From Candidatus Gastranaerophilales bacterium (GTDB lineage: Bacteria > Cyanobacteriota > Vampirovibrionia > Gastranaerophilales > Gastranaerophilaceae), in contig CANQDZ010000002.1 of assembly GCA_947594025.1 (NCBI GenBank), positions 62,001-126,000 on the forward strand: 64,000 nt of DNA. Reading direction: 5' to 3'. Under the pieces are notes generated by a model. The model saw only the letters and a program-made list of their open reading frames with translations. It was not told where the DNA came from and did not search any database. The translations under genes were made by a program, and so were the position numbers. This document shows positions 11,709-44,182 of the stretch, piece after piece (position 1 is the stretch's first letter; every line of letters begins with the position of its first letter).

Positions 11709-12935
11709 ATGAATAATTTTATTAAGCAAACGACAAATCTGAATAATAATGACAGAAAAATAACAAAAAGACTGCCAAATTCATTTACTGACGATAGTGA
11801 TGAAATTACCTTACGCAGGGCTTTCTTATATTCTGTTATGGCACATCCTTTAGCAATATTGATTGCGTGGATATTGTTTGCGGGACTTACTTTTTTAGGT
11901 CTTGTGCCAAACGAATTTAATAAACCTTCTTTAAAAGTTCAAGATATTGAATTTATTCTTGTAAATAAAGAAGGTGAACCTATCGATAAAAATACTAAAT
12001 TCAGGTCTGACAGAAACTCTCAAGCGGGCGGTATACATGACCCGAAAAGAAAAATTGCGGAGCCCTCTCCTGCAGGGCCTAAAACAAAAAAACCAACTCC
12101 GTCAAAATCAGGGGGCGGACAAAGTAAAACTCCGCCAAAAGCGGCTCAGCCAAAACAGGCAAATGCTCCTGTACAACAGGCATCACCCGCACAATCTAAA
12201 ACAATATCAAAACCAAAACAAGCTTACGCACCAAAACCGACTGTTAATCCTAATTTGCCTTCAGGCGCATTAACAAGACCTCAAATGCCAAAAGTGGTTC
12301 AAACTCCAAAGAGTCCTTTTACCGTCGGCGTGCCAAATACAAATTTACCTAAAGGACCCGTTCCCTCAACTTCAAAAGGAACTGCTAAATATGGCGGTCA
12401 AGGCGGCGGAACACCAAGCGGTTCAGGTAACAGAATGGCTTCAATGCCCGCACCTCAATTTTCAAAAGGTCAAGGAACGGGAACAGGTGTCGGAAACGGC
12501 AAAGGTTCAGGATATGGGACAGGAAAAGGCACCGGCACAGGAGGTGGCGGTGGTCAAGGCGGTTACGGCACAAACGGTTGGGGTAATCCCGGACCGGGTA
12601 ATCCAAACGGAACACCCGGAGTTGACGCTATTAAACAAGCGGACTGGGGTCCTTATATGAGAGAACTCGAACGCCGTATAAAAAGAAATTGGAATCCTCC
12701 GAAGGGGGATACTTCAAAAAGAGTTGTTATGCTCTTTACAATAGGCAGAGACGGCAGACTTGTATCAATCAAAACACTGAAAAGCTCAGGTTCGCCTGAA
12801 AATGACAGAGCAGCAAAGGCTGCGATTGAACTGACTGCACCGTTTAAATCTTTGCCTCCGGAATACAAAGGAAACAACGTAGATATCGAATTTACGTTTG
12901 ATTACAATGTACTCGGTGCAAGAAGTTACAGATAA
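11709..12935 (+). CDS. TonB-like energy transducer
   Basis: 408 aa. One membrane anchor at about residues 48-66 (AHPLAILIAWILFAGL) follows a cytoplasmic N-terminus. A long periplasmic Pro/Lys/Gln-rich stretch (about 110-230) and a Gly-rich stretch (about 235-300, GTGKGTGTGGGGG) span the envelope. A C-terminal TonB/TolA-type domain ends the protein (YMRELERRIKRNWNPP near 315, then IGRDGRLVSIKTLKSSG and an AAKAAIELTAPF helix). It would carry motor force across the periplasm. ExbB and two ExbDs follow directly, 24 bp downstream, confirming the module. No TonB-dependent receptor is in the window. Confidence 0.88.
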   Translation: MNNFIKQTTNLNNNDRKITKRLPNSFTDDSDEITLRRAFLYSVMAHPLAILIAWILFAGLTFLGLVPNEFNKPSLKVQDIEFILVNKEGEPIDKNTKFRSDRNSQAGGIHDPKRKIAEPSPAGPKTKKPTPSKSGGGQSKTPPKAAQPKQANAPVQQASPAQSKTISKPKQAYAPKPTVNPNLPSGALTRPQMPKVVQTPKSPFTVGVPNTNLPKGPVPSTSKGTAKYGGQGGGTPSGSGNRMASMPAPQFSKGQGTGTGVGNGKGSGYGTGKGTGTGGGGGQGGYGTNGWGNPGPGNPNGTPGVDAIKQADWGPYMRELERRIKRNWNPPKGDTSKRVVMLFTIGRDGRLVSIKTLKSSGSPENDRAAKAAIELTAPFKSLPPEYKGNNVDIEFTFDYNVLGARSYR

Positions 12936-12959: not shown

Positions 12960-13607
12960 ATGAACTTATTTATTGAATCAATTAGAATGGACTGGCCTGT
13001 ATTAACGCCAATTTTCTTATGCTCAATTTTGGTTGTAGCCGTTGCTATAAACAGAATTACTTACTATAAGAAAAATGAAAGAAATATAGGCGACTTTATT
13101 CAAGGTCTTCAAAGAAACCTTGCCGAAAAGAATATCGCAGGTGCGCAAAGATTATCAAGCAAACTTGGCGGTATTATCAGTGAAATGGTTGATGAAGGCT
13201 TAAGAATTTATACCGAACAAAAATCAGGTTTTTCAAGAGCTTACGATATTTCAGCAAGCCTTGCAACAAGAAAGCTTGAAAAGAACCTGTCAGTTTTAGG
13301 TACAATCGGTGCGGTTGCCCCGTTTTTAGGTTTGTTTGGTACAGTTGTCAGAATTCTGTTCACATTCCAAGATTTGGCTATGCAAGGTAACCAATCGGCA
13401 ACGGTTGCAACCGGTATCGCATCAGCTCTTATCGCAACTGCTCTGGGTTTAGGCGTTGCAATTTGCGCGGTTGTATTATTCAACTGGTTCCAAAGCACGG
13501 TTACACGTTTTGAAAACGATTTTAAATTAATAAAACTTGTATTCTTAAGCTTTATTGATTCCGATGAAGAAGTACATCTTGATAAAGATAACAAAATGGC
13601 ACTGTAG
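12960..13607 (+). CDS. exbB: ExbB/TolQ-family proton channel subunit
   Basis: Inner-membrane stator of a proton-driven motor. 215 aa with three membrane segments: residues about 12-30; about 110-130 (LGTIGAVAPFLGLFGTVVRI, the conserved MotA/ExbB/TolQ signature); and about 145-170 (ATGIASALIATALGLGVAI). Spacing to exbD is 21 bp. Whether it belongs to a Ton or Tol type system is not decided by sequence; the adjacent TonB-like gene favours Ton. Confidence 0.93.
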   Translation: MNLFIESIRMDWPVLTPIFLCSILVVAVAINRITYYKKNERNIGDFIQGLQRNLAEKNIAGAQRLSSKLGGIISEMVDEGLRIYTEQKSGFSRAYDISASLATRKLEKNLSVLGTIGAVAPFLGLFGTVVRILFTFQDLAMQGNQSATVATGIASALIATALGLGVAICAVVLFNWFQSTVTRFENDFKLIKLVFLSFIDSDEEVHLDKDNKMAL

Positions 13608-13628: not shown

Positions 13629-14084
13629 ATGGCAATGAAAATCTCAAAAGACGGCGAGAAAAAAGCCAGCTTTAATGAAATAAATATTACACCTTTAACA
13701 GATATCTTTTTGGTGCTTTTAATCATAATGATGGTTATTGCGCCGAGTTTCCAATCTCAAAATCAAAATATTAAAATGCCTGAAATAAATTCAGGTGTAT
13801 CTGTTGAAGAAAAAAATGCCACTGTTTCTATCACCAAAGAAGGTGAAATGTTCTTAAACGATGAAAAAATCACGGAAGATAAATTAGCTGAAAAACTTGA
13901 AATACTTGGCGGAGATGCTGAGGACAAGCAAGTTATAGTTAAGGCTGACGAAAAAACAAAAAGCTCCGAAATTATGAAAGTTATGAGAGCGGCACAAGAT
14001 GCGGGATACGAAAAGCTTATTGTTGCAGGTGAACCCTTGAGTCAAAAAAGACAAGAAGAATTAAAAGAAAAGGACAAAAAATAA
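13629..14084 (+). CDS. exbD: ExbD/TolR-family protein, first copy
   Basis: Proton-conducting partner of ExbB. 151 aa: a short cytoplasmic tail, one membrane helix beginning at the TPLTDIFLVLLIIMMVIAP segment (the Asp after PLT is the conserved proton carrier), then a periplasmic domain with ITKEGEMFLND and an AxxxGYEKLIVAG C-terminus. A charged tail (KRQEELKEKDKK) distinguishes it from the second copy. Its membrane-helix DNA is identical over 74 bp to the next gene. Confidence 0.92.
   Translation: MAMKISKDGEKKASFNEINITPLTDIFLVLLIIMMVIAPSFQSQNQNIKMPEINSGVSVEEKNATVSITKEGEMFLNDEKITEDKLAEKLEILGGDAEDKQVIVKADEKTKSSEIMKVMRAAQDAGYEKLIVAGEPLSQKRQEELKEKDKK
13671..13744 (+). repeat. 74-bp perfect direct repeat, copy 1
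   Basis: Bases 13671-13744 are identical to 14101-14174. They encode the first periplasmic-entry helix of ExbD. The bases on either side differ. Confidence 0.95.
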
Positions 14085-14085
14085 A

Positions 14086-14469
14086 ATGGCAAGACAATCT
14101 TTTAATGAAATAAATATTACACCTTTAACAGATATCTTTTTGGTGCTTTTAATCATAATGATGGTTATTGCGCCAATGCTTGACCAACAAGGTTTAAATT
14201 TGGCAGTCCCTCAATACGTTGAAGAAAGTGCCGTAAAACACGATTCAAAAATTTTGACGGTTGGGGTGACCGTTGATAATAAATATATAATGAACGGGAG
14301 AGTAATTGCATTGGAAAGCTTAAAGAGCGAGCTTCAAGAAAATGCAAAAGCATATCCGGACGGTCTTATGATTGAAGCTCAAGGAGATTCAAATCACGGG
14401 GCGGTTGTTAAATTAATGGATGCCGCAAGAAATTCCGGCATATCAAGCATATCTGTTACAGAAATATAA
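14086..14469 (+). CDS. exbD: ExbD/TolR-family protein, second copy
   Basis: 127 aa. The N-terminal FNEINITPLTDIF helix is identical to copy 1, but its periplasmic domain is only distantly similar (DSKILTVGVTVDNKYIMNG, C-terminal AARNSGISSISVTEI). It starts 1 bp after the stop of copy 1 and is followed 13 bp later by the AsmA-like gene. Two different ExbDs per ExbB suggests a heteromeric stator or two alternative TonB partners. Confidence 0.92.
   Translation: MARQSFNEINITPLTDIFLVLLIIMMVIAPMLDQQGLNLAVPQYVEESAVKHDSKILTVGVTVDNKYIMNGRVIALESLKSELQENAKAYPDGLMIEAQGDSNHGAVVKLMDAARNSGISSISVTEI
14101..14174 (+). repeat. 74-bp perfect direct repeat, copy 2
   Basis: Second copy of the tract at 13671-13744, in the same codon phase. 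Confidence 0.95.
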
Positions 14470-14482
14470 AATTGAGGGAAGC

Positions 14483-17400
14483 ATGATTTTAAAAAGAATT
14501 AAAATGCACGCTTTTCCCAAGAAGGGATTAAGCGTTACATTTGGAATTATTTTTGGTTTATTTGCCGTTTTCTATGCATTATTTTTAATTGTTCCGAGAA
14601 CTATAGATGTTTCAAAATATACTCCTGAAATAAACAAGATAATTAAGGATTATACCCGCCTCGAATTTGTGCTGAATAACCCTAAAATCGTAACAACCTT
14701 TGATTTTGGACTTAAAATTTCAGCTGATGAAATAGCTTTTAAATATGACGATAAAACAGACTTTTTAAATTTAAAAAATTCTTCAATTAAAATAAATCTT
14801 TTAACCTTAATTGTTAAAAATTTAAATTTAGATAAAATTTATGTTCAAAATGCTGACTTAAATCTTGTATTCGACAAAAATAAGAAATACACGATTGAAG
14901 ATTACATTATTTTGCCTAAATCTGATGAAGAAAATGAAAATGAAAGTGCAGATAATGTAATTGAAGAAGATGAGATACAAAATGCCGAATTTCCTATTAA
15001 TATTAAAAATATCAACATTGTTGCAGATAATGTAAATATAACTTTAAAGGACAAAAACGTTTCTAAAACATTTATTTTAAATACGAAAAATAATAATATT
15101 CACCTGTCCTCTCTAAACGGACCTCTTAAATTTAAATCAGAGGGATATCTGGGAACCGACAAAACACATTTTATTGATTTTAATATTGATGTTCAAACTC
15201 CGCTTCCCGATTTTGAAGCTCAGCAACCAAATACACAAAATGAACAAACAAAATTCAAACTCCCTGATTTTAATCCTCTCCAAGATGTTGATAAATTTAA
15301 ACTTTATACAAAAGCGGACGTTGACTTAAAAATATCAAATTTAGATGATTTTAAAGCAAAAGGTCATGCATATCTTTACGATATGTCTATGATGATAAAA
15401 GATGTTCAGCTTCCAAAAAGCTACATAAATATAGATTTTAACGGAAGCAAACTAACAAACGACATTAAATTTTATGTCGCACAGGATGAATTTATCCAAT
15501 CCAAAGGGACAACAAATTTCGGCAAAAAATCAAGTTTTGATATAAATGCAAAGACGGAAAAAATTTCCCTCAACAATATAAAAATCTTACTATCTTCCGT
15601 TTTGGATATGTTTTCAATTAAAAACGATGTTAAAACGGCAAGTGCAACAGGTTATTTAACCTGTGATTTTAATATTAAAAGCAGCGGAAATAAGTTAAAA
15701 AGCAGTGGTAAATCAGAAATTGTAAACGGCTCTTTCACATACCCTGCAATAAATGTTAAATTAACAAACATCACTTCGATTTTAGATTTTGCTAACAATA
15801 AATTATCAATAAAAGAATCAAGCGCAAACTTAAACGGCTCAAAGTTCAGCGTAAAAGGTGAAATACTGACCGATTCAAGCTTAAACATTGATGTAAATTC
15901 CGATCCGATTAAAATTGCAGATATCATAAAACTTGCATCTTCCGTTAAAATTTTAAACCCGAATGATATACGTGATTTTAACTTTAAGTCAGGTATTATT
16001 AAAATTGCAGTTAAATTATCCGGAACACTCCAAAATATATTGCCCGATGCGCACGTTAGCGTTAACAGTCTGGCATTTTTAGTTAAAAGTATAAATACAT
16101 CAGTTAATATTCCAAATATTGAAATATCCGCTAAGCCGACTAAAGGAACAGATTTTGAAGGTTCAGTCGATGTTAATAATCTCTCTGTCAACTATCCCGA
16201 TTTAAAATTAAATATAAAAGCTCCAAAAATCTCCATACCTTTTGATTCTAAAAATCTTACAATTAAAAAGTCAGACATAACTGCAGACGGCACTGTTGTA
16301 TCCGTTAGCGGAGATATAAAAAATTACATGACAAAACCTGAATTTGTAATAAATGCGGACGGAAAAATTGCGCCAAATACAATTTTAAATATGGTGCCGT
16401 CATCAAGCAGAAAACTTGTTCAATATCAAGGACTTGTGCCTGTAAAAACTGTTATTTCAGGTGATTTGAATAACATAAAAATAAAAGGCGATGCCGTATC
16501 TAATCCGCAAAATTACATAAGCGTGATTGATATTGACACAATTAAAGGCGCACAAAATACCTTAAATTACGAAATAGATTTAAAGGGTGATACTTTAAAT
16601 TTAACGGATATATCCCTTAATTCTTCTAAAGCGGGAAAAGTTGCAAATATTAAAGGTAAACTGTCCTCTATATATAAAGCAAACCCTGTCATAGACGGAA
16701 TTACGGTGTCAGTTCCTCAAAAATTGAATTTAGTTATTGCTCCTTTAGATAACACTCAATTATCTCTAATTTCCAACATTAATATAGCAGGAACCGTTTT
16801 AAACCCTGCAATTACGGGTTCTGCAGAATTAAGCAACGTTAACTATCCTCCGTTCAAATTGAGTGCGGGCGATGTTAAATTGAACTTTAAAAAATCCGTT
16901 ATTTCTGCAAATGCGTCAGGCATTTCCGTTGCAAACTCTGATTTTTCAGGAAACGCAGAAGTTTCAACAAATATGGCAAAGAAAATTACAATAAACGAGT
17001 TAAACTTCAAATCAAACAAATTTGATACCGACGAACTTATGAAACTTATGGCAAAAATGCCCGCAAGCTCATCCGCTCCCGGCAGTGACGCGGGTGAAAT
17101 CCAAATCACAAAAGGTAAGGGCGAAATAGGCAGTCTGAAATCAGGCGGTCTGAACATTAACAATATAGATTTTGACTATAGCTTAAAAAATAATTTATTT
17201 GATATGAAAAACCTCAAAGCATCTGTTTATGAGGGCAGTGCAAGCGGAGAAGCAAGCTATCATCTTTCACAGCTTAGAACATCAATAAATATGACTGTTT
17301 CAGGTGTGAATGCAGGAAAATTTTCATCCGCATTCACCGGTCTCATCGTTCCTGTTTCAGGTACCGCAAGCGGAATGGCAAAACTTTCGCTAAAAGGCTC

Positions 17401-18016
17401 AACTATGAAGCAGCAAATGCAAACATTAAACGGTTCTGTCAAATTCAACGTCAGAAACGGCGAGATTAAAGATTTTGTGAAGCTTGAAAACTTCTTAAGA
17501 GCAGGAAACATATTATCTCAAAATCTGTTAGGTTTTAATTTAAATTCCGTATTATCAACAGTTTCAAATAAAAACACAGGCGCATTTGACAGTCTTGACG
17601 GAATGGTTTCTTTTGGAAACGGTATAGCAAACATTGAAACCTTTAAGACAAGAGGAAGTCAAATGAGCATGTCTGTTACGGGCAAATACAATATGCTTAC
17701 AAACTATGCCGATATGAGGGTTTTAGGCAGAATTTCATCAACGATTGTAAATGTTATGGGTCCTTTAGGTAACTATTCCGTAAGCAAAGTGCTCGATAAC
17801 GTAGCTGCAAAAAATGATACGGTAAATACAATTTTAAATATTGCAAAATCAATAGCGCCTCAAAATCCGCTGTTCCAAACAGTTACAAAAGAGGAGTTGT
17901 CTCAAATTCCGGAACTTACAACAAATGTTGAAAATAAAAAGTTTTTAGCAATAATTAAAGGTCTTGCAAATCAAACAAGCGCAGTTAAAACGTTTAAGTG
18001 GATTGACGTTCAATAG
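14483..18016 (+). CDS. Giant AsmA-like envelope protein
   Basis: 1177 aa. The start at 14483 is chosen because a GAGGGA ribosome binding site precedes it; a longer frame from 14420 would overlap exbD without a site. One N-terminal membrane anchor (about residues 17-38, LSVTFGIIFGLFAVFYALFL) is followed by a long periplasmic region of repeating beta segments (recurrent SGxxxNxxIKG, LxIKxSxxxxNGS). The C-terminus (INMTVSGVNAGKF, LKGSTMKQQMQTLNGSV, FNVRNGEI, a Gly-rich LxxFKTRGSQMSM) matches the AsmA/DUF748 superfamily. Such proteins act as bridges moving phospholipid between inner and outer membranes. The overlap with yitT at the 3' end is 23 bp, convergent. Last gene of the TonB/ExbBD operon. 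Confidence 0.85.
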   Translation: MILKRIKMHAFPKKGLSVTFGIIFGLFAVFYALFLIVPRTIDVSKYTPEINKIIKDYTRLEFVLNNPKIVTTFDFGLKISADEIAFKYDDKTDFLNLKNSSIKINLLTLIVKNLNLDKIYVQNADLNLVFDKNKKYTIEDYIILPKSDEENENESADNVIEEDEIQNAEFPINIKNINIVADNVNITLKDKNVSKTFILNTKNNNIHLSSLNGPLKFKSEGYLGTDKTHFIDFNIDVQTPLPDFEAQQPNTQNEQTKFKLPDFNPLQDVDKFKLYTKADVDLKISNLDDFKAKGHAYLYDMSMMIKDVQLPKSYINIDFNGSKLTNDIKFYVAQDEFIQSKGTTNFGKKSSFDINAKTEKISLNNIKILLSSVLDMFSIKNDVKTASATGYLTCDFNIKSSGNKLKSSGKSEIVNGSFTYPAINVKLTNITSILDFANNKLSIKESSANLNGSKFSVKGEILTDSSLNIDVNSDPIKIADIIKLASSVKILNPNDIRDFNFKSGIIKIAVKLSGTLQNILPDAHVSVNSLAFLVKSINTSVNIPNIEISAKPTKGTDFEGSVDVNNLSVNYPDLKLNIKAPKISIPFDSKNLTIKKSDITADGTVVSVSGDIKNYMTKPEFVINADGKIAPNTILNMVPSSSRKLVQYQGLVPVKTVISGDLNNIKIKGDAVSNPQNYISVIDIDTIKGAQNTLNYEIDLKGDTLNLTDISLNSSKAGKVANIKGKLSSIYKANPVIDGITVSVPQKLNLVIAPLDNTQLSLISNINIAGTVLNPAITGSAELSNVNYPPFKLSAGDVKLNFKKSVISANASGISVANSDFSGNAEVSTNMAKKITINELNFKSNKFDTDELMKLMAKMPASSSAPGSDAGEIQITKGKGEIGSLKSGGLNINNIDFDYSLKNNLFDMKNLKASVYEGSASGEASYHLSQLRTSINMTVSGVNAGKFSSAFTGLIVPVSGTASGMAKLSLKGSTMKQQMQTLNGSVKFNVRNGEIKDFVKLENFLRAGNILSQNLLGFNLNSVLSTVSNKNTGAFDSLDGMVSFGNGIANIETFKTRGSQMSMSVTGKYNMLTNYADMRVLGRISSTIVNVMGPLGNYSVSKVLDNVAAKNDTVNTILNIAKSIAPQNPLFQTVTKEELSQIPELTTNVENKKFLAIIKGLANQTSAVKTFKWIDVQ

Positions 18017-43924: not shown

Positions 43925-43928
43925 AAAA

Positions 43929-44009
43929 TGTCGTAAGGGGGACTTGAACCCCCATGGATTTCTCCACACGCCCCTCAAACGTGCGCGTCTACCGTTCCGC
44001 CACTACGAC
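43929..44009 (-). tRNA. tRNA-Leu (GAG)
   Basis: 81 nt without encoded CCA. Acceptor GTCGTAG pairs with TTACGAC (last pair G-T); anticodon stem CACGT/GCGTG with loop TTGAGGG gives GAG. Long variable arm (GTGGAGAAATCCAT) fits the class II tRNA-Leu. Confidence 0.95.
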
Positions 44010-44048
44010 ACGATAATACATACATCATCTTATCTATTCAATTTTCAA
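43999..44048. repeat. 50-bp direct repeat, copy 1 (tRNA-Leu 5' end and promoter)
   Basis: Identical to 44133-44182. It covers the first 11 nt of tRNA-Leu (43999-44009) and 39 bp upstream, including a minus-strand TATTAT. Confidence 0.95.
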
Positions 44049-44132: not shown

Positions 44133-44182
44133 GCCACTACGACACGATAATACATACATCATCTTATCTATTCAATTTTCAA
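44133..44182. repeat. 50-bp direct repeat, copy 2
   Basis: Second copy of 43999-44048; the tRNA sequence stops after its 11th base and continues into the structured segment. Confidence 0.95.

Follow-up and report, generated by a model that had tools for sequence, protein, structure and literature searches.

Two tandem genes of a Candidatus Gastranaerophilales bacterium, exbD1 and exbD2, share a tract of 74 identical bases, and recurrent ectopic gene conversion between them is the best explanation of this identity (probability of roughly 0.88). Across relatives, the within-genome excess of identical silent sites is limited to the tract, the two tract copies group by genome, and the pattern recurs in separate lineages. 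The window analysed here is a 64-kb stretch (64,000 nucleotides) of a 1.51-Mb draft genome consisting of 52 contigs and 98.9 % complete. The locus encodes, in order, a TonB/TolA-like protein, an ExbB/TolQ-like protein, ExbD1, ExbD2 and an AsmA/YhdP-like protein (Table 1). ExbD1 and ExbD2 both pass the PF02472 gathering cut-off of 25.4 bits.

Table 1. Genes and tract copies at the exbD locus, in window coordinates
Feature	Position	Strand	Remarks
TonB/TolA-like protein, TonB C-terminal domain	11709..12935	+	Sole PF03544 match in the genome
exbB/tolQ-like	12960..13607	+	Sole PF01618 match in the genome
exbD1, 151 aa, ExbD/TolR family	13629..14084	+	PF02472, 95.2 bits
Tract copy 1, in exbD1	13671..13744	+	Conserved Asp codon 13701-13703
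exbD2, 127 aa, ExbD/TolR family	14086..14469	+	PF02472, 88.9 bits
Tract copy 2, in exbD2	14101..14174	+	Same 74 bases; conserved Asp codon 14131-14133
AsmA/YhdP-like, immediately 3' of exbD2	14483..18016	+	Start codon unsettled; mechanical ORF from 14420

The two tract copies, separated by 430 nt start-to-start, are identical at 74 of 74 positions (one family at 100 % in a repeat search) and form the longest direct repeat reported within the window. When the whole assembly is searched for the tract at the DNA level, it occurs only at these two places in exbD1 and exbD2. The tract translates to FNEINITPLTDIFLVLLIIMMVIAP, a peptide of 25 residues, with the last base of the final Pro codon falling outside the 74 nt; when the 25 codons (75 nt) are compared in full, that third codon position is the one base at which the copies are unlike. 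The peptide aligns with the N-terminal part and the membrane helix in solved structures of ExbD and TolR, and the membrane-helix Asp of both window proteins aligns with an Asp of these chains, D25 in E. coli numbering. Outside the tract, ExbD1 and ExbD2 match at 22 of 101 aligned residues. The original prediction, a model's reading of the letters, had described a perfect repeat in two otherwise distantly similar proteins, and both parts of this description hold, as do its gene calls for exbB, exbD1 and exbD2.

Genes from relatives were found by motif, which yielded 262 sequences (261 loci and the window) and 258 tandem pairs. The remaining four were dropped, two lying at contig ends (L071 and L107), one having a single motif match (L179) and one having none (L193). 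Pairs identical over the tracts and the 200 bases behind each were counted once, giving 220 distinct pairs; these rows still include close relatives and are not phylogenetically independent. The printed alignment of L096, a gene that begins at a contig edge, is shifted, and its mismatch count is unaffected. Two genomes, G266 (contigs C24 and C31) and G322 (contigs C30 and C72), each contain two separate exbD1-exbD2 pairs, reflecting either mixed binning or an additional operon.

The helix is strongly constrained as a protein. The conserved Asp is present in 220 of 220 pairs, although the gene-finding motif itself requires that Asp, and 22 of the 25 tract positions carry the same residue in both genes in at least 210 of the 220 pairs, some of these residues likewise being demanded by the motif. 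The variable residues are at positions 2 and 23, and 12 pairs have Leu at position 19 of ExbD2. Because of this constraint, a baseline of tract DNA similarity is always present: the two tracts of a pair are 73-100 % identical (median 84 %), and even in the 163 pairs with at least 10 mismatches, identity stays at 70-100 % in 23 of the 25 three-base bins and drops to about a third just 3' of the tract. Protein constraint does not explain, however, why silent sites are identical.

The number of mismatches per pair ranges from 0 to 20 of 75 bases (median 12), and 15 of the 220 pairs have four or fewer. On a FastTree tree built from the non-tract proteins alone, these 15 pairs require at least 11 changes, and the 29 pairs with six or fewer mismatches require at least 21. 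The near-identical pairs span at least seven genera (g1, g21, g25, g26, g36, g37 and g38), and those with a placeable genome all lie inside the family of the window genome. Beyond that family, only weaker signs are observed, such as L174 with 17 of 22 identical codons (p = 7.9e-5). A screen of 30 wider loci (L264-L293, 29 of them outside the class) revealed a tandem pair only in L289, a family member; this is a weak negative, with 7 of the 30 having no motif match at all.

Synonymous codons in the tract agree more often within a genome than between genomes. For 171 unique pairs, codon identity in the tract is 0.599 within genomes (2211/3689) versus 0.439 between genomes, whereas in the rest of the genes the corresponding values are 0.439 (1198/2730) and 0.418, so the within-genome excess is nearly absent there. 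The original prediction had named as a counter-sign tracts that, in the majority of relatives, diverge between the two genes as fast as the codons flanking them. Differences in most relatives are indeed found, as 205 of the 220 pairs have more than four, but the comparison with the rest of the genes turns out otherwise. In 97 unique pairs, within-genome codon identity is 0.616, compared with a mean of 0.463 over 10,000 random re-pairings (sd 0.009, maximum 0.498). Among 94 disjoint pairs of related genomes, tract codons group by genome 152 times and in the cross pattern 45 times (p 9e-15), versus 47 and 51 times in the rest of the genes (p 0.76). Without conversion, the two counts should be about equal, and the rest of the genes displays that near-equality. 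With ties included, 64 of the 440 tracts have their own paralogue as nearest neighbour and 341 have an orthologue, and the paralogues are reciprocal neighbours in 28 of 220 genomes. For the non-tract proteins, the paralogue is nearest in 0 of 440 cases and an orthologue in 440 of 440, and the flanks thus keep the orthologue tree; mean within-genome protein identity is about 17 % over the rest of both genes.

The exchange is episodic rather than constant, since 205 of the 220 pairs are not near-identical at present. In 18 genome pairs with a protein distance below 5 %, 126 sites follow the orthologue pattern, 10 the genome pattern and 2 the cross pattern; in 12 pairs at a distance of 28-36 %, the numbers are 24, 38 and 9, respectively. 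With increasing distance, genome-pattern sites gain at the expense of orthologue-pattern sites. The dominance of orthologue patterns in very close pairs indicates that few events occur over such short times. Two contrasts at 8-9 % protein distance point to recent events in a single lineage: L072 (1 mismatch) with its relatives L064, L070 and L081 (13-16 mismatches), and L073 (0 mismatches) with its relative L034 (13 mismatches).

We propose that exbD1 and exbD2 arose from an old duplication and are now distinct proteins except for 25 residues, which comprise the membrane helix, bearing the proton-carrying Asp, and a short stretch in front of it. Selection on the protein keeps both helices nearly constant and thereby leaves a 75-bp island of DNA identity in poorly alignable sequence. 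Occasional homologous exchange over this island, the copies here being ~430 bp apart, would overwrite one copy and reset its silent sites to identity, and between events silent changes would build up anew. The agent would presumably be RecA-type homologous recombination. The original prediction had conversion keeping the helix identical, and this applies only in part: the helix is almost invariant even in genomes where no recent conversion has taken place, which means that protein selection alone can account for the residues and that conversion acts mainly on silent sites.

The borders of the identity are consistent with this mechanism, in which exchange stops near the edges of the island because homology stops there. 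In the 15 homogenised pairs, identity is near-complete from codon 3 to the Pro codon and drops immediately behind it, so the borders follow the end of homology; identity continues for 6-11 bases 5' of the tract in L232, L058 and L097. L124 and L254 are matched in the centre and differ at residue 2 (L124 also at residue 23), and exchange of the centre alone is therefore possible. A direction is indicated in single cases. In L072, both copies resemble the exbD1 of three relatives more than their exbD2, indicating a transfer from exbD1 to exbD2, and L211 suggests the same direction. The opposite direction is not established: L073 leans weakly toward it, and L105 gives conflicting results, pointing one way by L091 and the other way by L082.

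The same end state could be reached by cycles of unequal crossing-over, in which a third, hybrid gene is formed and then deleted, rather than by non-reciprocal conversion. Direct repeats a few hundred base pairs apart permit such cycles, and the class includes more distant genomes that have just one PF02472 match (G114, G119 and G124), either ancestral or reduced. We consider this route improbable, given that the motif used detects no third adjacent exbD in 258 loci and that none of the 18 genomes with unusual exbD numbers has exactly one match (13 have zero exbD, possibly through draft gaps, and 5 have two to four).

Gene conversion also accounts better than selection on the nucleic acid for the comparison of the window with its congener. 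One congener, a different species (G001, locus L004), was compared, with one genome per species. In the congener, the two tracts are identical except for 2 of 75 bases, which lie in the same codon, encoding Ser in one copy and Asn in the other. Over the 75 sites of the four tracts, 7 sites group by species, 0 by orthologue and 0 crosswise, 65 are constant and 3 show other patterns. The original prediction had proposed that within-genome identity exceeding between-strain identity would demonstrate conversion; in the between-species form of this comparison, within-genome identity is the higher of the two, and conversion is strongly supported. A regulatory element, an RNA structure or a codon programme present in both genes might also fix the 74 bases, and the extension of identity to silent sites is what such selection would produce. 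It should hold the tract between species as well, but the congeners keep 14 of 22 and 16 of 23 synonymous codons in the two tracts, similar to 57 of 88 and 36 of 68 in the rest of the genes. This silent divergence, comparable to that of the flanks, favours conversion and speaks against selection at the DNA level. Moreover, tract codon identity between exbD1 and exbD2 of different genomes is 0.44, near the 0.42 outside the tract, the value for orthologous tracts is only 0.47, and different species carry different, internally matching versions. Strong selection on the DNA itself, which the original prediction had offered as its second reading, is thus unsupported and has a very small chance of being correct.

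Silent identity in the window pair exceeds what codon usage predicts. Shared codon bias could in principle make the same peptide converge on the same codons in the same genome, and 13 of 20 comparable codons of the window pair also match outside the tract. Nevertheless, 22 of the 23 comparable tract codons are identical, versus 9.5 expected from the codon usage of the locus (p = 1.9e-8), and over all pairs the remainder of these genes is hardly more alike within than between genomes; convergence of this kind is scarcely credible. The direct comparison of the tract with the rest of the window pair gives a Fisher p of 0.013, so the window pair alone is only suggestive and the relatives carry the proof. 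In the 220 pairs, 2886 of 4751 codons are identical, compared with 1987 expected from own codon usage. Under this own-usage null, 74 of the 220 genomes pass a 5 % FDR, an upper figure because the null is slightly generous, with 3.2 % rather than 1 % of controls reaching p < 0.01. At p < 0.001, 17.7 % of genomes are positive, versus 0.3 % of the 655 between-genome controls, each of which combines exbD1 from one genome with exbD2 from another.

An assembly or binning artefact, with the reads of one copy used for both, is extremely unlikely: although the assembly is a draft of 52 contigs and a 74-bp repeat, short relative to read length, could yet confuse an assembler, collapse (the check requested by the original prediction) would delete the intervening sequence, both copies sit in different and intact flanks, a separate congener assembly is in the same state with seven species-specific differences, and near-identity recurs in other assemblies (15/220).

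Concerted evolution of bacterial genes and the tandem arrangement of exbD1 and exbD2 are both already known (PMC6053082 and PMC3551730, respectively, by their accessible text). Long-lasting concerted evolution of prokaryotic paralogues was described by Wang and Chen in 2018 (PMC6053082), and as far as the available sections go, their cases resemble the present one in that paralogues within a genome are more alike than orthologues, silent sites included, recurrently over deep time, and in that most are members of protein complexes. That study treats genes, whereas only about 75 bp take part here, and exbD has 0 occurrences in its main text. The E. coli rRNA operons and tufA/tufB likewise undergo conversion within one bacterial genome, and the excerpted text describes that process as RecA-dependent (PMC8022953). 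In those systems, similarity between the copies is high throughout (98.9 % for tufA/tufB) and the product is the same, in contrast to exbD1 and exbD2, which are unlike outside the tract. The same excerpt puts the length that efficient RecA-mediated recombination requires at 50 bp; the exbD tract, at 74-75 bp, exceeds this value. In the tonB cluster of Xanthomonas campestris, a member of another phylum, exbD2 also lies directly 3' of exbD1 and has its own function (PMC3551730); the portion of that paper at hand does not mention tract exchange.

No paper linking gene conversion or concerted evolution with exbD, exbB or TolR was found in the literature searched, most of it outside subscription journals, as judged by titles and the opening of abstracts. 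As far as we have seen, the new element is that tandem partners which are otherwise very different repeatedly exchange a single helix of 25 residues and nothing beyond it, in at least seven genera of the same family. As a natural example of bacterial gene conversion that is recurrent, limited to one domain and very short (about 75 bp), the locus is a clean one, and the 220 distinct pairs make minimal homology, tract borders and rate measurable from public genomes. It also carries a warning: where phylogenies or primers rely on this part of exbD, its most conserved one, the two paralogues can become mixed.

The locus further raises the question of how two distinct ExbDs share one ExbB. The genome contains one PF01618 match, one TonB C-terminal domain match and two PF02472 matches, exbD1 and exbD2. 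Exactly one PF01618 match is present in 37 of the 64 family members listed, window included. The extra PF01618 matches elsewhere, among those listed, lie in longer open reading frames, of about 240-285 aa within the family, which we would guess from their length to be MotA. In the Ton and Tol motors, an ExbD/TolR dimer lies inside a pentameric ExbB/TolQ pore and the conserved Asp likely carries the proton, and each E. coli pore protein has one ExbD or TolR partner, according to the accessible part of PMC12215075; here, one ExbB is accompanied by two different ExbDs. Both helices therefore probably share one pore, with the two ExbDs most plausibly forming mixed or alternative dimers, and the protein constraint on the helix would come from the need of both helices to fit the single ExbB pore. 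One may speculate further, though we regard it as rather doubtful, that ExbDs of different periplasmic specificity form such dimers and that the exchange is more than a by-product, recurrent conversion of the pore helix alone spreading ExbB-suited changes to both partners simultaneously. If true, this would constitute a mechanism of module-wise co-evolution in a rotary proton motor.

The ExbD1 and ExbD2 proteins differ in their nearest solved structures. The best-matching solved chain of ExbD1 is an ExbD (6tyi, E 1.7e-15), whereas ExbD2 is slightly nearer to TolR (E 7.6e-8) than to ExbD (4.3e-7); the genome has one ExbB/TolQ-family match. One motor may possibly serve a Ton-like and a Tol-like branch. 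With the NCBIfam models, both ExbD1 and ExbD2 score best with TolR, below its equivalog cut-off (83.4 and 78.2 versus 127.3 bits). The scores are also below cut-off for TolQ (107.1 versus 221 bits), TolA (32.1 versus 59.45 bits), the ExbB equivalogs TIGR02797 (75.6 versus 206.2) and TIGR02805 (70.8 versus 135.35), ExbD_1 (69.1 and 43.1 versus 152.95) and ExbD_2 (52.1 and 49.9 versus 123.45). Only the TonB-family C-terminal domain model TIGR01352 is reached, by the TonB/TolA-like protein (37.2 versus 27.1), and membership in neither the Ton nor the Tol system can thus be claimed. The TonB-dependent receptor plug domain PF07715, the one receptor model used, has 0 matches in the genome, even though a TonB, an ExbB and two ExbDs are encoded. 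As a guess, the AsmA/YhdP-like neighbour might hint at outer-membrane lipid traffic. ExbD2 is 76 % identical to a protein of Cyanobacteria bacterium SIG30 (the same locus as that of the congener), and further near relatives are Candidatus Gastranaerophilales.

The window contains another repeat, an exact 50-bp direct repeat at 43999-44048 and 44133-44182 (134 bp apart), whose first 31 bases occur genome-wide only at these two places. Either part of the region was duplicated, or the repeat is the scar of an insertion or a fault of the assembly. Its first copy extends into the 5' end of a tRNA-Leu(GAG) gene on the minus strand (43928-44010), so the repeated segment comprises the beginning of this tRNA together with the region upstream of it.
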